Source of the DNA: Vineibacter terrae
GTDB lineage: Bacteria; Pseudomonadota; Alphaproteobacteria; Reyranellales; Reyranellaceae
Direction: 5' to 3'
Assembly (NCBI RefSeq): GCF_008039615.1
Contig: NZ_VDUZ01000004.1
Span: 62,001 to 126,000 of the forward strand
Length of the DNA: 64,000 nucleotides
Part shown: in pieces, positions 47,466 through 56,159 of the stretch
How positions within the stretch are numbered: the stretch's first letter is position 1
Layout of the letters: each line of letters starts with the position of its first letter
Made by a program: the position numbers and the translations under genes
Notes under the pieces: model-generated
Seen by the model: the letters and a program-made list of their open reading frames with translations, nothing else
What the model was told of the DNA's origin: nothing
Database searches by the model: none

Positions 47466-47550
47466 CCCGCAGCTGACATTGACCACCATTGCCTCTGATG
47501 CGTCTCGTCCCTACAGTGCAAAAGCACCGGATGCGATTTGGGGGACTGAC

Positions 47551-49308
47551 GTGCCCCGCGAGCTGCGACGACTGGCGGCGATCGTATCAGCCGATGTGGC
47601 AGGGTACTCCCGCCTCATGGGCCGCGATGAGAGCGGCACGCTGGCCGCGCTCAAGGCGCTGCGGCACGACCTGATCGACCCCAGGATCGCCGAGCATGGT
47701 GGCCGGATTGTGAAGACAACCGGCGACGGCCTGCTGCTGGAGTTCGCCAGCGTGGTCGAGGCCGTGCGCTGCGTCGTCGACGTGCAGACGGCCATGGCGA
47801 CGCACAACGCGGACCTGCCGGCGGAGCGACGCATTGAGCTGCGCGTCGGCGTGAATGTCGGCGACATCATCATCGATGGCGACGATATCTTCGGCGACGG
47901 CGTCAACGTGGCGGCGCGGCTGCAGGCGCTGGCGACACCGGGTGGCATCTGCGTCTCGGGCCATGTGCAGGAAGACGTGCGCGGCAAGCTGGACGTCGCC
48001 TTCGAGGATGCCGGCGAGCAGCAGCTCAAGAACATTGCCTGGCCGGTGCGGATCTACAGAACCAGATCAGGCGGCGCGACGCCGGCGACGCCGCAGCCAT
48101 CACTGGCGCAGCCGGACAAGCCGTCGATCGCGGTGCTGCCGTTCCAGAACATGAGCGGCGATGCCGAGCAGGAATACTTCGCCGACGGCATCACCGAGGA
48201 CATCATCGCGGCGTTGTCGCGCATCTCCTCGCTGTTCGTGATCGCCCGCAACTCCAGCTTCGCCTACAAGGGCAAGGCTATCGACATCCGCCAGATCGGC
48301 CGCGAGCTGGGCGTGCGCTACGTGCTTGAGGGCAGCGTGCGCAAGGCTGGCCGGCGGCTGCGCATCAGCGGCCAGCTCGTCGAGGCCGAGACGGGCTCCC
48401 ATCTCTGGGTGGACAGGTTCGACAGCGTCCTGGAGGACGTGTTCGATCTGCAGGATCGGGTGACCATGGCAGTCGCCGGCGCGATCGAGCCTTCGGTGAC
48501 TCAAGCCGAGATCAGGCGCGCGGATCGCAAGCCCACCGAAAACCTGCAAGCCTACGACTTGCTGATGCGCGCGCTTGGCGAGCAGCAGCTCTATTCGCGC
48601 GAAGCCATCGATCGCGCCATGCGGATGGCGCGCCGGGCCGTGGAACTGGATCCGCGCTACGCGCAGGCCTATGCCTGCCTTGCGGGCTGGGCCGGTTTCC
48701 GGAAGATCAACGGCTGGATGGAGGATGATGCCGGGGAGACGGCCGAGGGTGCGCGCTTCGCGCATCAGGCGGTGCAGCTGGCGCCCAACGATTCGATCGC
48801 GCTGACCCTGGCGGCCCTTGGCCTGGCCCATCTCGATCGCGATCTGGCGACGGCCATTGCGTGGCTCGACCGGGCGATCGCGCTCAATCCCAACTGGGCG
48901 CTCGCATACGGCTGGGGCGCGCTCGTGCGGACTTTTGCGGGCGACTACGCCACGGCCATTGTTCATGCCGATCGGGCCATGCGCCTGAGCCCGTTCGATC
49001 CGTTTTCCTTCGCATTCAGCCTGGCGCGAGGAGTCAGCCATTTGTTCCAGGGGCAGGTGCCGGAAGCGGTGGCATGGCTGCGCAAGTCGACGCGGGAAAA
49101 CCCACGCAACATCACGACATTCCTTTGCCTCGCGAGTGCGCTGGCGCGTGCCGGACAGATCGAGGAAGCCCGGGCGGCGATCCGGCGCCTCCTGGAACTG
49201 GACGCGACGGCCATTGCGAGGTGGCGGCGGGACCCCCGTCGGCTCTATCCCGAGGCTGATCACGCGTACCTGATGGAGGGCGCGCGCCTGGCCGGCCTGC
49301 CGGAATGA
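47551..49308 (+). CDS. Class III adenylate/guanylate cyclase with TolB-like and TPR regions
   Basis: A 585-residue cytosolic signalling protein. The cyclase domain fills residues 1-170: AAIVSADVAGYSRLMGRDES carries metal-ligand Asp14, TTGDGLLLEF the second Asp (59), and VGVNVGDIIIDGDDIFGDGV with NVAARLQALA the dimer/substrate part. From about residue 190 a TolB-N-like region begins (KPSIAVLPFQNMSGDAEQEY, then IGRELGVRYVLEGSVRKAGR) and TPR-like helices run to the end. The start is a GTG; no ATG occurs nearby in the frame. This layout is common in rhizobia and relatives. It would make cAMP (or cGMP) from a nucleotide triphosphate. Confidence 0.9.
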   Translation: MPRELRRLAAIVSADVAGYSRLMGRDESGTLAALKALRHDLIDPRIAEHGGRIVKTTGDGLLLEFASVVEAVRCVVDVQTAMATHNADLPAERRIELRVGVNVGDIIIDGDDIFGDGVNVAARLQALATPGGICVSGHVQEDVRGKLDVAFEDAGEQQLKNIAWPVRIYRTRSGGATPATPQPSLAQPDKPSIAVLPFQNMSGDAEQEYFADGITEDIIAALSRISSLFVIARNSSFAYKGKAIDIRQIGRELGVRYVLEGSVRKAGRRLRISGQLVEAETGSHLWVDRFDSVLEDVFDLQDRVTMAVAGAIEPSVTQAEIRRADRKPTENLQAYDLLMRALGEQQLYSREAIDRAMRMARRAVELDPRYAQAYACLAGWAGFRKINGWMEDDAGETAEGARFAHQAVQLAPNDSIALTLAALGLAHLDRDLATAIAWLDRAIALNPNWALAYGWGALVRTFAGDYATAIVHADRAMRLSPFDPFSFAFSLARGVSHLFQGQVPEAVAWLRKSTRENPRNITTFLCLASALARAGQIEEARAAIRRLLELDATAIARWRRDPRRLYPEADHAYLMEGARLAGLPE

Positions 49309-50369: not shown

Positions 50370-51452
50370 ATGTCGTGTCCTATCCGCAACGTGCTCCAGG
50401 CACGGGCCCTGGCGTGGGGTGCCGCCGCCGTCCTGGGGGCATGGGCATGCGCCACCCCGGCCATGGCCCAGCCGGCGCGGCTGGCGCTGGTGATCGCGAA
50501 CGCCACCTACACCACCTTGCCGGCCGTGCCGGTGTGCACGACGGCGGCGCGCTCGGTCGCCGAGAAGCTGCGGGCCGCTTCCTACGACGTCATCGAGCGC
50601 AACGATGTCACGACCGGCGGCTTCGATGGCGCGGTGGCCGACTTCTCCACCCGCCTGACCCAGTCGCCCGGCGCGACGGCGTTCATCTATGTCTGCTCGC
50701 GCGGCGCCAGCCTCAACGACCGGGCCTTCGTCGTCCCGGTCTCGGCGACGCTGGAACGGCCGACGGACCTTTTCACCCAGGGCGTCCTGGCCAAGTCGCT
50801 TTACGATACGGTGCAGCGCGGCCGCGCCGGCACGGCGGTGGTTGCCCTCGACCTGGTGCCGCCGGCGACCGGCCCGCGCCCGACCGGCTTCGACACCATC
50901 GCCGAAGGCATAACCCTGGAAGGCCTGGCCGCGGTCACGGTGATCGAGCCTGCGCCCACCACCGTCTTCACGCGCCTGTCGGAAGCACTGGTGTCGGCGC
51001 TGGGGCGGCCCACCCTGACCAGCGGCGCGTTGCTGGCAGCCGCCCAGGAGCAGCTTGGCGCGGGCTCCGGCAGCGCGACCATCGCGATGCGCCAGCCGAA
51101 GGCGTCCGGGCTCGTCGTCGGCAAGGCCCCGACGCCGCCACCACCGCCACCGCCGCCACCACCACCACCACCGGTCACGACGGTCGAGCCGCCGCCACCG
51201 CCGCCACCCCCGACGACGACAACGACGACGCCGACATCCCCGGGCCTGCCGGAAGAGCACCTGATGACGCTCGATGACCGCCGCCGGGTCCAGGAGGCCT
51301 TGCGTAACCTTGGTTACTATTCGTTACCTGTCGATGGCGTGTTCGGTCCTGAAACCAGGGCGGCCATTCGCAAGTATCAGATGCAGCTCATGGCGGAGCC
51401 CACCGGACGCTTGACCGCCGAGCAGGCCACGCTCCTGGTGTCCCGACGGTAA
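50370..51452 (+). CDS. Secreted caspase-fold pseudoenzyme with Pro-rich linker and peptidoglycan-binding-like tail
   Basis: A 360-residue exported protein. Signal peptide (AWGAAAVLGAWACATPAMA, about residues 15-34), then a caspase-like p20 fold (RLALVIANATYTTLPAVPVC, AARSVAEKLRAASYDVIERN, GATAFIYVCSRGASLNDRAF). At the catalytic-His position, where the family usually has GHG, it reads SRG (around 110-112). The DxC nucleophile position reads ALDLVPPA (about 159-166). So the catalytic pair appears lost. A Pro/Thr-rich linker (about 239-290) leads to a PG_binding_1-like domain (299-355: RRVQEALRNLGYYSLPVDGV, FGPETRAAIRKYQ). First gene of a three-gene operon with a haem sensor and a kinase. Confidence 0.82.
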   Translation: MSCPIRNVLQARALAWGAAAVLGAWACATPAMAQPARLALVIANATYTTLPAVPVCTTAARSVAEKLRAASYDVIERNDVTTGGFDGAVADFSTRLTQSPGATAFIYVCSRGASLNDRAFVVPVSATLERPTDLFTQGVLAKSLYDTVQRGRAGTAVVALDLVPPATGPRPTGFDTIAEGITLEGLAAVTVIEPAPTTVFTRLSEALVSALGRPTLTSGALLAAAQEQLGAGSGSATIAMRQPKASGLVVGKAPTPPPPPPPPPPPPPVTTVEPPPPPPPPTTTTTTPTSPGLPEEHLMTLDDRRRVQEALRNLGYYSLPVDGVFGPETRAAIRKYQMQLMAEPTGRLTAEQATLLVSRR

Positions 51453-51467
51453 GGGAGATTTCGTGTC

Positions 51468-52343
51468 ATGGGGCTGAAGACGAAGTTCAACCTGGGAATG
51501 GGCGTCGCCTTTCTGGTCGGCCTGGGGCTGGCCGCCTTCATGTTCAACCAGGTCCTGCGCGACGGCGCACGGCAGGCGGCCCTGCGCGATGCCGGCATGA
51601 TCCTGGCGCAGGCGGCGGCGGTGCGCGGCTATACCGCCACCGAGGTCGCGCCGCTGCTGCGCGAGCAGCTCAAGACGCGCTTCCTGCCGCATTCGGTGCC
51701 GTCGTGGTCGGCCCAGACCGTATGGCGGGGCATGCAGTCGCAGTTCTCCGACTACAGCTACAAGGAAGCGGCGCTGAACCCGACCAATCCCTCCGACCGC
51801 GCCACCGACTGGGAGGCCGACATCATCGAGCAGTTCCGCCGCGACCCGAAGCTGGCCCAGTTCGCGTCGGTGCGCGACACGCCGACCGGTGCCGTGCTCT
51901 CCCTGTCGCGGCCGCTGCGCATCGCCAACCAGGCCTGCCTGAGCTGCCACACGACGGCGGCCGAGGCGCCGCAGACCATGGTCGACCTGTACGGCCCGGC
52001 CAACGGCTTCGGCTGGAAGCTCAACGAGACGGTCGGGGCCCAGATCGCGTCGGTGCCGCTGGCGGTGACGACCCGTCAGGCTGACGAGCTGCTGAAGCTG
52101 TATATCGGCGGCCTGGTCGCGGTGTTCGCGGTGATCGCCATCCTGCTCAACGTGATGCTGCACTACATCATCGTGAAGCCGGTCCGGCAGATCTCGGCGG
52201 CGGCCAACGACATCAGCATGGGCAACATGAACGCGCCCGAGGTCGAAGCCAGAGGCAGCGACGAGATCGCCTCGCTGACCGAATCGTTCAACCGCATGCG
52301 GCGCAGCCTGGCAAGCGCCATGGGGCTGCTCGGCAGCACGTAG
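51468..52343 (+). CDS. Membrane c-type-haem sensor (DUF3365/Tll0287-like) with HAMP domain
   Basis: A 291-residue membrane sensor. An N-terminal span (residues 9-27) is followed by a periplasmic domain of about 180 residues with one c-haem site CLSCH (Cys157/Cys160/His161). A second span (212-232) leads to a HAMP domain (VKPVRQISAAANDISMGNMN, then GSDEIASLTESFNRMRRSLA). There is no catalytic output domain, so the signal would pass to a partner, presumably the kinase whose gene begins four bases later. Redox or ligand sensing in the periplasm is inferred from the haem. Second gene of the operon, 15 bp after the caspase-fold gene. Confidence 0.88.
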   Translation: MGLKTKFNLGMGVAFLVGLGLAAFMFNQVLRDGARQAALRDAGMILAQAAAVRGYTATEVAPLLREQLKTRFLPHSVPSWSAQTVWRGMQSQFSDYSYKEAALNPTNPSDRATDWEADIIEQFRRDPKLAQFASVRDTPTGAVLSLSRPLRIANQACLSCHTTAAEAPQTMVDLYGPANGFGWKLNETVGAQIASVPLAVTTRQADELLKLYIGGLVAVFAVIAILLNVMLHYIIVKPVRQISAAANDISMGNMNAPEVEARGSDEIASLTESFNRMRRSLASAMGLLGST

Positions 52344-52347
52344 ATCG

Positions 52348-53703
52348 ATGGCGCAGCCTTCCTTGCCGGCGAAGATCGGCCGGTACGTGATCGAAGCGAC
52401 GCTGGGGCGCGGCGCGATGGGCGTGATCTACCGGGCGCATGACCCGGTGATCGACCGGCGCGTGGCGCTGAAGCTGGTGCGCGTCGACCTGCTGGAGGGC
52501 AGCGAGCGCAAGGATTTCATCGACCGCTTCCAGCTCGAGGCCAAGGCCGCGGGCCGCTGCGCGCATGCCAATATCGTCGGGATCTTCGATTACGCCCAGC
52601 ACGAGGACAACCCTTACATCGCGATGGAGTTCGTCGACGGCCAGAACCTGGCGCAGGCGATGCGGGCCAGCCCGCGCCTGCCGGTCGACGCCGCTGCCGG
52701 GATCATCCATCGCATGCTCGATGCGCTGGCCTGCGCCCATGGCCACGGTGTCGTGCACCGCGACATCAAGCCGGCCAACGTCCTGCTCGGCCTCGACGGG
52801 CGCGTCAAGGTGACGGATTTCGGCATCTCGCGCATCGGCGGCTCGTCGCTGACCCAGACCGGGGCGCTGATCGGCACGCCCAACTACATGTCGCCCGAGC
52901 AGCGCCGCGGCGACGTCGTGGATGCGCGCAGCGACCTGTTCTCGACCGCTGCCGTCTTCTACGAGATGCTGACGGGCGAGCTGCCGTTCTCCGGCCGCAA
53001 TTACCACGAGGCCACGCAGCAGCTGCTGTACGGCACCCCGACGCCGCTGGCGCAGCGCCTGCCCGGCGCGTCGCCGGCCTTGTCGGCATTCATGGATATG
53101 GCGCTGGCTCGTGAGGCCTGGCTGCGCTTCGACTCGGCGGCAGCGATGGCGATGGCGCTGGCCGATGCCATGCGCGGCATCGAGCCGCGCCGTCCGGTGG
53201 CGCCGCCGGCGCAGCAGGCCACCGTCCCGCCGGCTGCCGGCGCCGCGCCCGGCGGCGGCGATGCGTTCTTCGTCGCCGAGATCGAGCGTCGGCTGGCGGT
53301 TCATATCGGGCCGATCGCCCGGCACCTGGTGCGGCGCGCCAGCGACAAGACGCAGTCGCTGGAGGAACTCTGCCAGACGTTGAGCGGCAGCATCGACAGG
53401 GCGGAACGGCGCGACGCCTTCCTGCGCGACGTGAGCGACCTGCTGCGCACCAGCGCCAACGGCCGGCTGCGCGCGGCGGCCGGGTTGCCCGCGGCCACGA
53501 TGTCGCGCGCCGCCATCGCCCAGCCCGACCTCGACCTCGTGCAGGCCCATCTCACGCGCTATATCGGGCCGATCGCGCACCTTCTGGTGCGCCGCGAGCT
53601 GAACGGCTCGGCAAGCCTCGATGATCTGTGGCAGCGGCTTGCGGCGCATATCCAGCGCCCCGCCGACCGCGAAGCCTTCCTGCGCCTGCGGCCGAACGTC
53701 TGA
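52348..53703 (+). CDS. Cytosolic Ser/Thr protein kinase with two C-terminal repeat domains
   Basis: A 451-residue Hanks-type kinase with all catalytic motifs: LGRGAMGVIYRA, Lys42 in VALKLVRV, VVHRDIKPAN (Asp139), VTDFGISR (157-159) and GTPNYMSPEQ. Unlike the FGE-kinase it has no membrane span. The C-terminus has two related repeats (RLAVHIGPIARHLVRRASDK and HLTRYIGPIAHLLVRRELNG, about 80 residues apart), a DUF8082-like pair found in other bacterial kinases. Third gene of the operon, starting four bases after the haem sensor; HAMP-to-kinase coupling is the simplest model but is inferred. Confidence 0.93.
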   Translation: MAQPSLPAKIGRYVIEATLGRGAMGVIYRAHDPVIDRRVALKLVRVDLLEGSERKDFIDRFQLEAKAAGRCAHANIVGIFDYAQHEDNPYIAMEFVDGQNLAQAMRASPRLPVDAAAGIIHRMLDALACAHGHGVVHRDIKPANVLLGLDGRVKVTDFGISRIGGSSLTQTGALIGTPNYMSPEQRRGDVVDARSDLFSTAAVFYEMLTGELPFSGRNYHEATQQLLYGTPTPLAQRLPGASPALSAFMDMALAREAWLRFDSAAAMAMALADAMRGIEPRRPVAPPAQQATVPPAAGAAPGGGDAFFVAEIERRLAVHIGPIARHLVRRASDKTQSLEELCQTLSGSIDRAERRDAFLRDVSDLLRTSANGRLRAAAGLPAATMSRAAIAQPDLDLVQAHLTRYIGPIAHLLVRRELNGSASLDDLWQRLAAHIQRPADREAFLRLRPNV

Positions 53704-53758
53704 GCCGCCATATGCGATCGGCTTGCCGCGAAGGCTGCGGGATCCGAAAAATAGGACT

Positions 53759-53845
53759 GTCATCCCGAGCGCCAGCGAGGGATCTCCCGCGAAAGACGCA
53801 CGGTGCGCCATTCGCAGGAGATCCCTCGCTGGCGCTCGGGATGAC
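53759..53845. repeat. REP-like palindromic element, copy 5
   Basis: Complete copy between the convergent kinase operon and pseudokinase genes: GTCATCCCGAGCGCCAGCGA at the left, ACGCACGGTGCGCC centre and inverted right arm. Likely the shared transcript-end hairpin of both units. Confidence 0.9.
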
Positions 53846-53899
53846 AGTGGAGATGTGTGAATGCCGTAGGCCGCGAAGGCGGGGAGCAGGGAGGTGGCT

Positions 53900-55636
53900 T
53901 CATTGGTTGGGCGTGTCGGCCAGGCGCTTCTGCGCCTCCTGGCGGCGCTTCACCTCGAGCGCGACCTGCCGCTCGTATTGCGCCAGCGCCGGAGCTGCCT
54001 GCAGCCAGAGCAGCGCTGCGTCCGACGCGGTCAGGTAGCCGGTGTCGACCTGACCGCGCGCCTTCTGCCAGGCGCTGATCATGGCGCGCGTGCGGCTGCC
54101 GAACAGGCCATCGCTGCCGTAGGTGTCGTGGCCCAGCGCCGTCAAGGCCACCTGTACGCGCCGCTTGTCGCGATCCGACAGCTTGAGCGCCGCCTCGACG
54201 GCGGGCGCGTTCTTGCGTGCCTCTGCCTCTGCCTGGGTTTTCTCGGCCGCCGCCTTGGCAGCCTGGTCCTCGGTGCGGCGTCTGGCCTCGGCCTGTGCTT
54301 GCTGTTCCCGGGCCCGGTGGGCTGCGTCCACCCGCGCTCGGGCCAGTGCTTCGGCACGTGCATCCTCCAGCGCCATCTCGCGATAGGCCGCCGCGGCAGC
54401 TGCCGTCTCGGCCGCCAGGCGGGATGCTTCCTCGGCCTGGCGCCGGGCCTTCGCCTCGGCGGCGGCGCTCCCGGCTGACGGGGCAGCGCCGGCCGGGGGG
54501 CGCTGCGGCCCCTGGGGAAGGCTCGCATAGTAGCCGGCAACGCCGGCCGGGATCGTCGCCACGGCCAAGGTGGCGGCGAGCGCCACCTTCCAGCGGCTCC
54601 GCCAGCCGGCACGCTGCCTGGCAGCGACGACGCGCAGCCGCGCGCGCCGATCGACATGCGTGGATGCCGCAGCGGCGGGCGGCGCGGCGGTGGTCGCCGT
54701 GACGGCCGGTGGGGCCGGCGCGATCGCCGTGTCGGGCAGCAGCACCGACCGCCATGCCGCGATGGATTGAGGCCGGCTCGCGGCGCTGCGCGCCAGCCCC
54801 GCCTGGATGCCGGCCAGCAGGCTGCCTCGATATCCTTTGATGGTCTCATGCAGCGGCGGCAGATGCTCGGCATCGCGCCTGTCCGCCGCCTGGGGCGGAG
54901 CACCCGTGACACAGTGGTGGAGAACTGCCGCGAGCCCATGGATGTCGGTGGCCGGACCGACGGGACCGTGGGTGAGCTGCTCGATCGCGGCGTAGCCCGG
55001 CGTCTGGATGCGCCCGCCCGATCCCATGCGCTCGGTGATCGCCGCGCGGGCGGCGCCGAAGTCGAACAGGATCGGCTGATCCTGCGCATCGAGCGCGATA
55101 TTGGTAGGTCTGATGTCCAGGTGCAGGACATCTCGGTGGTGGGCCTGCTCGAGCGCATCGAGCAGGCGTGGCAGCAGGCGATCGATTGCCGCAGGCGGCA
55201 GGCGCTCCGCGCGCGCCAGCCGCGCGGCCAGCGTGTTGTCCGGCACCGGTGCCATGACCATGTAGGCGGTGCCATTCGCATGCAGATGGTCGCTGACCAC
55301 GACGATGCCCGGGGTGCGGGCGAGCGTTGCGAGCGCTGCGGCTTCGGCCAGGAAGCGGTCGCGGCCCCACAGAAAGTCGTCAGCCTGCTGCGGCGATCGC
55401 GGCAGCACCATCAGGTCGTGATGACGAGCCGCCAGATGGGCCGGCAGGTATTCCCGGACCACGACATCGCTGCCGCGCGCCGTGTCGCGGGCACGGTAGG
55501 TGACGCCGATATGCTCCAGCCGAAAGACCTTGCCGATGAGATACGCACCGACGCGCGTGCCGGGCGGCAGTGTCTGCGGTGGCTTGCGCGCACGCTGCCG
55601 CGCCGACGCTGCCGCGGATCGCCTGTCGCTGGCCAT
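53900..55636 (-). CDS. Membrane pseudokinase with C-terminal peptidoglycan-binding-like domain, second copy
   Basis: A 578-residue relative of the FGE-kinase (29.4 kb) and the pseudokinase at 41.4 kb. The glycine loop is degenerate (FRLEHIGVTYRARD), the nucleotide Lys is Arg61 (VVVREYLP) and HRD is HLD (172-174) with Arg176 for Lys (HLDIRPTN), but DFG (192-194) is kept. A membrane span (VALAATLAVATIPAGVAGYY, about 350-370) leads to an Ala/Arg-rich stalk and a PG_binding_1-like domain (486-543: RRVQVALTALGHDTYGSDGL, FGSRTRAMISAWQK). ATG chosen for GGGAG six bases upstream. It converges with the caspase/haem-sensor/kinase operon. Confidence 0.88.
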   Translation of the reverse strand: MASDRRSAAASARQRARKPPQTLPPGTRVGAYLIGKVFRLEHIGVTYRARDTARGSDVVVREYLPAHLAARHHDLMVLPRSPQQADDFLWGRDRFLAEAAALATLARTPGIVVVSDHLHANGTAYMVMAPVPDNTLAARLARAERLPPAAIDRLLPRLLDALEQAHHRDVLHLDIRPTNIALDAQDQPILFDFGAARAAITERMGSGGRIQTPGYAAIEQLTHGPVGPATDIHGLAAVLHHCVTGAPPQAADRRDAEHLPPLHETIKGYRGSLLAGIQAGLARSAASRPQSIAAWRSVLLPDTAIAPAPPAVTATTAAPPAAAASTHVDRRARLRVVAARQRAGWRSRWKVALAATLAVATIPAGVAGYYASLPQGPQRPPAGAAPSAGSAAAEAKARRQAEEASRLAAETAAAAAAYREMALEDARAEALARARVDAAHRAREQQAQAEARRRTEDQAAKAAAEKTQAEAEARKNAPAVEAALKLSDRDKRRVQVALTALGHDTYGSDGLFGSRTRAMISAWQKARGQVDTGYLTASDAALLWLQAAPALAQYERQVALEVKRRQEAQKRLADTPNQ

Positions 55637-56159
55637 GACATCTCCCGGCAGCACACCCACGCACCGCAGCATTATCGCCGGGGCGTTTTACGCCGTCCGT
55701 GATTTTACGGTGTCCGTTGGCGGCGGTGGCCGCATCGATGGCTCTCGCACACTTGCACCGACCGCTTATTTGAGGCGGTCAGTGAGATGAAAACGCATGA
55801 CAATCATTGATGATCCTGATGTGGAGCTTCAACAACGGCGGAAAATAAAATGACGGCATGCCAACAGGCACCTCAAGAATAGTTGAGCGGTCGGCAGCTG
55901 TTCGCTGCATCCTTGCCGGCCCGTGTATTTCCATATTGCTTGCAACGTCTGCGCTGGTTTCTCGTTTCAATCATGCAGCGATGCACGCGTTATCTTCCCG
56001 CAATGATGGCCTTGTAAGGTCGATGTCGACGCGAGGCGGGAATATCCGGTTGCCAGCTTCTGGCACGCAATGTGCGTCTGTCAGCGCGCGTCCAGCGTGA
56101 ATGTCCCGGTGCCGTCGGGACATGCGTTCTCGATGACCGATCCGTACGTGGGGGACGTG
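55637..56159. other. Divergent intergenic region, ~520 bp
   Basis: Between the pseudokinase start and the response-regulator start. It is less GC-rich than its surroundings, especially 55780-55860, and must hold both promoters. Short frames on either strand (for example minus strand 55779-55970) have no ribosome site or family resemblance and are not called. The right end carries the GGGGGAC ribosome site of the response regulator. Confidence 0.4.

Follow-up and report, generated by a model that had tools for sequence, protein, structure and literature searches.

What would a secreted protein of predicted caspase fold, a haem-binding membrane receptor and a protein kinase do together when their genes stand in one tight row? 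The question is raised by a stretch of 64,000 nucleotides (the window) of contig NZ_VDUZ01000004.1 (C4) in the 8.76 Mb genome of Vineibacter terrae, family Reyranellaceae. It carries such a trio with intergenic gaps of 15 bp (caspase/sensor) and 4 bp (sensor/kinase), a packing already described in a prediction made from the letters alone and borne out by the open reading frames (ORFs). That original prediction treated the genes as one signalling line running from periplasmic wall or redox state through a haem/HAMP sensor to the kinase, and knew of no described system of this make-up; we too found none in the open-access literature. Its interpretation is partly supported overall, in that receptor and kinase form a conserved pair, but the version in which the cell wall is read fares poorly. 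To it we add an exchangeable first gene, a swap between kinase and cyclase with shared repeats, a STAC-like fold, published nitric oxide (NO)-binding data and a link to type VI secretion systems (T6SS). The trio is a real, conserved system of known domains in an arrangement that we did not find described. Its parts are as follows.

50370..51452, + strand: pseudocaspase gene, encoding a signal-peptide-like N-terminus, a predicted caspase-fold domain without the catalytic Cys and His, a proline-rich linker and a PG_binding_1 tail (ORF; Pfam, AlphaFold2/Foldseek and alignment columns; signal peptide by eye).
51468..52343, + strand: output-less transmembrane (TM) receptor gene, in the order TM helix, periplasmic c-type haem Cache domain (Tll0287-like) with CLSCH, TM helix, HAMP (Pfam; TM helices by eye).
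52348..53703, + strand: Hanks-type Ser/Thr kinase gene with two C-terminal STAC-like repeats (Pfam Pkinase; motifs by eye).
53266..53700, + strand: the two kinase repeats, ~55 aa each, with an [IVLM]GPxA-type motif (alignments, model, Foldseek).

Composition, conservation, loss of the catalytic cysteine, predicted folds, gene linkage and, in several lineages, T6SS linkage can be read from the sequences, and from these we infer a ligand, a HAMP-to-repeat contact, kinase targets and a role for the pseudocaspase. The trio would be the sensing part of a transmembrane Ser/Thr kinase system split over separate genes. Its periplasmic c-type haem Cache domain would respond to NO or a related redox signal and pass this along the two TM helices to HAMP, to which no output domain is attached. 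HAMP would then act on the STAC-like repeats at the kinase C-terminus and so switch the kinase, while the secreted pseudocaspase would be an exchangeable periplasmic co-receptor tuning the receptor, like TagQ/TagR or RtkS for PpkA. By the precedent of the threonine phosphorylation pathway, the kinase in Reyranellaceae would likely act on T6SS proteins (the FHA protein TagH, TssL). Taken whole, this split haem-receptor/kinase reading with T6SS targets has in our judgement an even chance of being right.

The sensor was searched for in its own genome and 100 relatives, with matches above 280 bits counted as full-length; the remaining matches were mainly to HAMP. With the own genome counted, 16 genomes have a full-length sensor, and 15 of these belong to the window's family (f1). 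The order caspase, sensor, kinase recurs in the window and 13 of the 16 fetched relative loci, the exceptions being L038, where the contig starts within the caspase gene, L045 (an additional copy in genome G054), which has no caspase match, and L050 (G068, from another family), which also has no caspase match and whose kinase is nearer to the kind encoded by a gene convergent with the trio. Within Reyranellaceae, the caspase gene lies directly before the sensor at 15/16 loci (one cut) and the kinase follows the sensor at all 16.

A wider set consisted of the best 80 of at least 583 sensor relatives in genome contigs, and is biased to close relatives (13 loci are on the same contigs as the fetched family loci); by record titles, L140 belongs to Anaerolineae and the others are proteobacterial. 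The original prediction had proposed looking for Hanks kinases behind DUF3365-HAMP genes and for a caspase-fold/PG_binding_1 gene before them, and both recur. A kinase follows the sensor in 77 of the 80 loci (76 by script, plus L097, whose frame starts too far upstream for the filter). At L123 and L151 the sensor is followed by a nucleotidyl cyclase bearing the same repeats as the kinases, and at L135 the kinase is placed before the sensor. Kinase and repeats occupy separate frames at L117 and L131, and a kinase and a below-cut-off cyclase match share one chain at L144. The caspase-PG protein is encoded beside the sensor in 34 loci (33 upstream on the same strand, L083 divergent). Its place is taken in 21 by a secreted-looking family (two members scanned, no Pfam match) and in seven by a family with one of two scanned members above the FecR cut-off; the first gene is unrecognised in 18, among them L077 and L080, both truncated by contig ends. 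The loci have a constant sensor-kinase pair and an exchangeable first gene.

The receptor matches the Pfam families Tll0287-like (formerly DUF3365, PF11845) at 117.5 bits and HAMP at 46.9 bits, has a single CLSCH and no other cysteine, and ends ~10 residues beyond HAMP, which leaves no output domain and agrees with the c-haem HAMP sensor foreseen by the original prediction. With a PF11845 match and a CXXCH motif it belongs to sCache_heme; no second Tll0287-like match was found in its own genome. A 2026 preprint reclassifies DUF3365/Tll0287 as a haem Cache domain (PMC12889525), and the architecture and missing axial Cys of the window sensor agree with Cluster 2 (NO sensors) of that study. The preprint describes a Pseudomonas azotoformans protein (Target 2) that, like the window sensor, is a c-type haem Cache receptor with two TM helices, HAMP, no output domain and no axial Cys; NO is bound tightly by it and lost at a slow rate (koff 6.25e-4 per s), whereas oxygen gives no stable complex (PMC12889525). 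NO would be the ligand of the window sensor too, because its receptor architecture is the same as that of the published NO-binding protein. The words serine, threonine, operon and caspase each have 0 occurrences in the main text of the preprint.

The kinase (451 aa) scores 151.6 bits against Pkinase, and GRGAMG, VALK, HRDIKPAN and DFG are present by eye, as expected of the complete Hanks kinase originally predicted. Its Pfam matches are of Pkinase type only, and inspection by eye reveals no hydrophobic segment, so that it differs from PpkA, in which a single chain combines kinase, TM helix and periplasmic domain. The C-terminus carries the two ~55-residue repeats with a GPxA-type motif, of which a single copy is found in L092, L111, L118 and L123. 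These repeats, which had been called DUF8082-like, are real, but the label is unconfirmed: they have no convincing Pfam or NCBIfam match, and no family is common to more than six of 41 repeat stretches (Pfam). A DUF8082 match was obtained neither for the window tail (Pfam, E<=10) nor for the 41 members (E<=1, families listed), the DUF8082 content of the Pfam copy being unchecked.

Profile searches for the repeats scored a limited number of candidates per genome (150/289 in the own genome, <=26 in Burkholderiales), so that single-copy statements are lower bounds. Among the best 150 of 289 candidates in the own genome the repeats occur at two places, the window kinase and a paralogous kinase on contig C41, both with a caspase gene alongside. 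They occur at one place in each of eight further genomes, except for G101 with a second, weaker one, and in 17 of 150 genomes of Burkholderiales (the order of Roseateles), four of the 17 at two places. Of 21 listed Burkholderiales repeat loci, 19 were fetched and 16 have a sensor match nearby (weak in L257); L241 is cut by a contig end. Because the repeat-bearing kinases of L251 and L254 have no sensor nearby, the repeats accompany the sensor usually, not always.

A structural model of the repeats (pLDDT 88.1, pTM 0.46) has three helices per repeat according to DSSP. Its best Foldseek match is Af1502 (prob 0.94, E 1.6; no match at E<=0.001), which also ranks second in profile searches of PDB sequences with the repeats (E 0.8 and 0.45). 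STAC domains are recognised by a four-helix bundle and the motif LGPx(x)A; the motif is present here, while the Af1502 similarity is weak and the model gives three helices per repeat. In Archaeoglobus fulgidus, Af1502 is a STAC protein whose translation is coupled to that of its partner Af1503, a HAMP receptor lacking an output domain (PMC4834066), and a preprint on CbrA regards STAC as a probable coupling element below a membrane domain (PMC13022988). The best match of the sensor profile in the PDB is the HAMP domain of Af1503 (E 1.1e-7). The suggestion that HAMP acts on the repeats arises because both partners point to this same archaeal pair, each by a match that is weak or unspecific.

The link to T6SS shows in gene neighbourhoods. 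Nine plasmid records match the sensor, of which five were opened: in Skermanella rosea pSR-2, sensor and kinase lie between tagF and tssH; in Paraburkholderia aromaticivorans pBN1, an unnamed gene, sensor and kinase adjoin tssB, tssC, hcp and tssE; and in Caballeronia zhejiangensis p3, FecR, sensor, kinase, PP2C, tagF and tssM stand in a row. The stretches seen of the Rhodovulum and Rippkaea plasmids have no T6SS gene, and that of Rippkaea also lacks a kinase. In genome G005 the trio is followed by a Tae4-like gene, a glucosaminidase gene and then tagH, tssK, tssL, tssM, tagF and PP2C, the cluster continuing with tssI to tssH and an intact-motif relative of the convergent kinase. The Tae4-like, an unmatched and the glucosaminidase gene between trio and tagH (G005:C1, L181:2918-5556) are probably wall-degrading T6SS cargo. 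FHA, TagF and PP2C genes accompany the embedded unit in G005, Skermanella, Caballeronia and G269. T6SS genes are present in the flank (<=7 kb) of five of the 80 loci, with a weak sixth at L151, and at three of the 19 Burkholderiales loci (L240, L244, L248).

At the genome level, T6SS presence was scored by VipB and compared by Fisher test, statistics that ignore shared ancestry and incomplete assemblies. In Reyranellaceae, VipB is found in 13/15 genomes with the sensor unit versus 8/46 without (p 2.3e-6), and within genus g3 in 7/9 versus 5/42 (p 2.0e-4). Sixty-four loci were taken as outside the family and the genomes of 50 searched for VipB, with counts made by hand: it is present in 41/50, comprising 19/20 with the caspase version and 22/30 without caspase. 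For comparison, 10/40 searched relatives outside Reyranellaceae have VipB; these 10 do not include G068, a genome with sensor and kinase.

Several observations weigh against the proposed system with T6SS targets. In the 150 Burkholderiales genomes, VipB is present in 6/17 with repeats versus 30/133 without (p 0.24), and G019, G020 and G068 have sensor and kinase but no VipB. There is no T6SS gene within the 64-kb window. The own genome has VipB twice on contig C9, where 40 kb contain matches to tssB, tssC, tssE, tssF, tssG, FHA, tssI and tssH, but tssK, tssL, tssM, tagF and PP2C were not found in those 40 kb. The STAC matches are non-significant by E-value (0.45 to 1.6), and the Af1503 match is weakly specific because Af1503 is over-represented among HAMP structures, filling much of their list. 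To these are added the two Burkholderiales kinases with repeats and no sensor beside them, and the sensorless pair on C41 discussed below. A universal T6SS role of the unit was given up after the Burkholderiales sample, because co-occurrence there is non-significant; on linkage and co-occurrence, T6SS control by the trio is likely in Reyranellaceae, not universal. As a separate observation, the two VipB/TssC-type genes on C9 (L180) form a tandem, which is common to most genomes of the family that have T6SS.

The alternative that survives best accepts the split haem receptor and kinase but does not dedicate them to T6SS: the unit would serve a general NO or redox response with other targets, and its T6SS linkage would have arisen by later recruitment in some lineages, while elsewhere it would reflect genome size or lifestyle. 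The non-significant Burkholderiales test, the absence of VipB from 9/50 genomes with the unit, the lack of a T6SS gene in the flank (<=7 kb) of most of the 80 loci and the occurrence of cyclase versions all speak for it. It is less at ease with the embedding of the unit in T6SS clusters with FHA, TagF and PP2C, with the strong co-occurrence in Reyranellaceae even within one genus, and with VipB in all but one of the 20 non-family genomes with the caspase version; we regard it as rather unlikely, though a serious contender.

A second caspase-kinase pair is present in the own genome on C41 (L072:7828-10874), where no sensor gene accompanies it and OmpA, hemerythrin and HemN-type genes lie further along. 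The caspase is 62% identical to that of the window and stands 86 bp from the repeat-bearing kinase, so caspase and kinase can persist together alone; the pair may rely on the same sensor as the trio or respond to some other input. From such a pair one could argue that caspase-fold protein and kinase are the core, with the haem protein a redox modulator and not the kinase's receptor. Across the 80 loci, however, sensor and kinase are constant while the caspase gene is replaced or unrecognised in 46, which makes this improbable and returns us to the sensor-kinase pair with an exchangeable partner.

That partner, in the window, scores 33.1 bits against Peptidase_C14 (cut-off 21.4) and 52.9 bits against PG_binding_1 (cut-off 23). 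An AlphaFold2 model of the caspase domain built from 14 sequences has a mean pLDDT of 73.6, with residues 118-137 below 50; its best Foldseek matches in the PDB are MALT1 and caspases (E 5.5e-7, TM 0.44), and of 76 matches at E<=0.001 the 50 listed are all MALT1 or caspases. The first protein is thus predicted to have the caspase fold, as the original prediction proposed. That prediction had allowed itself to be overturned by a trio not conserved in related genomes or by a first protein of another fold, and neither was seen, the trio being kept in Reyranellaceae and the fold predicted. Its remark that SRG replaces GHG and that no DxC cysteine is present also stands: with the intact C14 paralogue L001 of the own genome (AGHG, DACR) as control, the catalytic His column holds R and the catalytic Cys column V. 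In an alignment of the window protein and 34 relatives, the Cys is absent from 35/35 and the His from 32/35, being retained only in L089, L121 and L149; L083 has DAAR at the position of DACR in L001. The window protein and its aligned relatives therefore lack the His-Cys dyad of active caspase-like peptidases (C14), and judged by these columns the caspase domain is catalytically dead. L001 itself, on contig C43, is a caspase-like protein in which inspection by eye shows the GHG and DACR motifs intact and a PG-binding-like stretch at the C-terminus; it may be an active relative of the pseudocaspase. Of the 35 aligned pseudocaspases, 32 have both cysteine 56 and cysteine 109 and 3 have neither, a co-occurrence that hints at a possible disulfide. 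The putative co-receptor role of the pseudocaspase is modelled on the action of TagQ/TagR and RtkS on PpkA.

The PG_binding_1 tail is retained by 34/34 caspase genes in the 80-locus set, and on this Pfam match the pseudocaspase is possibly held near peptidoglycan. This retention, together with the Tae4-like and glucosaminidase genes adjoining the trio in G005, would suit a wall-state line, with the caspase-fold protein as reader of peptidoglycan and the haem/HAMP protein as relay; since the first gene is swapped for families without a PG-binding match, we consider it highly improbable. That three unrelated genes are neighbours by chance can be dismissed, for although small intergenic gaps alone are common in bacteria, this reading is refuted by 14 loci of one family that share the gene order and by 77/80 in which sensor and kinase adjoin; the conserved trio is more than chance.

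Promoter and terminator scans gave 0 sites and 2 sites (2.1 expected), respectively, and none of the three proteins of the trio matched NCBIfam above a curated cut-off. Downstream lies the convergent gene.

53900..55672, - strand: convergent neighbour with a degenerate protein kinase domain, TM-like segment and PG_binding_1 (Pfam).

It scores 74.8 bits against Pkinase and 27.8 bits against PG_binding_1, and looks degenerate by eye, R replacing the VAIK lysine and HLD replacing HRD. In G005 and G054, relatives with intact motifs adjoin tssH within the T6SS cluster; this neighbour was not found at the 16 relative loci L036-L051; it is possibly functionally related to the trio. Between the two convergent kinase genes, a long near-perfect inverted repeat (53757-53850) contains an exact 23-base match between 53763-53785 and 53819-53841, the two copies being oppositely oriented, and the segment 53695-53910 that spans it has a fold z-score of -9.2; it may be a bidirectional terminator or a mobile palindrome. 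On the other side of the trio, positions 47500-49308 encode an adenylate/guanylate cyclase domain followed by TPR repeats (Pfam), upstream of an isochorismatase-like gene.

We searched open-access full texts, subscription papers being mostly outside this scope, and found no paper on DUF3365 together with T6SS, none joining caspase-like, T6SS, serine threonine kinase and peptidoglycan-binding, and none joining HAMP, serine threonine protein kinase, T6SS and nitric oxide. More tentatively than for the window itself, we suggest a widespread new class of split kinases, mainly in Proteobacteria, with an output-less haem Cache-HAMP receptor that would signal through STAC-like repeats on a separate kinase or cyclase, an exchangeable periplasmic partner (here a pseudoenzyme) as co-receptor and, in several lineages, NO gating of T6SS. 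Such a system may tell the cell when to arm its T6SS, a weapon aimed at neighbouring cells, and makes NO gating of bacterial weapon firing a testable question; it also gives STAC-like modules a candidate job as HAMP readers and provides a conserved pseudocaspase with a testable periplasmic role.

The window sensor differs from Target 2 in that a kinase gene stands next to it, whereas the passages concerned name no partner gene for the P. azotoformans receptor (PMC12889525). The trio's kinase provides a candidate output partner for haem Cache receptors of this kind, which have no domain beyond HAMP and for which NO binding has been measured. The pseudocaspase shares the predicted fold and Pfam C14 match with MALT1, caspases and L001, but it and its aligned relatives are without the catalytic Cys. 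Af1503/Af1502 are alike in having a receptor that ends in HAMP and a next gene with a small helical domain and a GPxA-type motif; what differs here is that the STAC-like part, whose matches are weak, comes as repeats fused to a kinase or cyclase, and that the receptor is a haem protein. The closest functional comparison is with the T6SS threonine phosphorylation pathway (PpkA, PppA, Fha, TagQRST/RtkS), in which TagQ/TagR and RtkS act on PpkA (PMC10482370) and which includes a TssW-PpkA-Fha axis (PMC12607579). The likeness lies in a Ser/Thr kinase gene with FHA, TagF and PP2C genes in T6SS clusters and in a periplasmic partner (PMC10482370, PMC12607579), which here is a pseudocaspase, a FecR-type or an unnamed protein. 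PpkA unites kinase, TM and periplasmic domain in one chain, whereas here kinase and haem Cache-HAMP receptor are separate; by this analogy the trio may work like a split PpkA pathway whose kinase is itself, by architecture, no PpkA.

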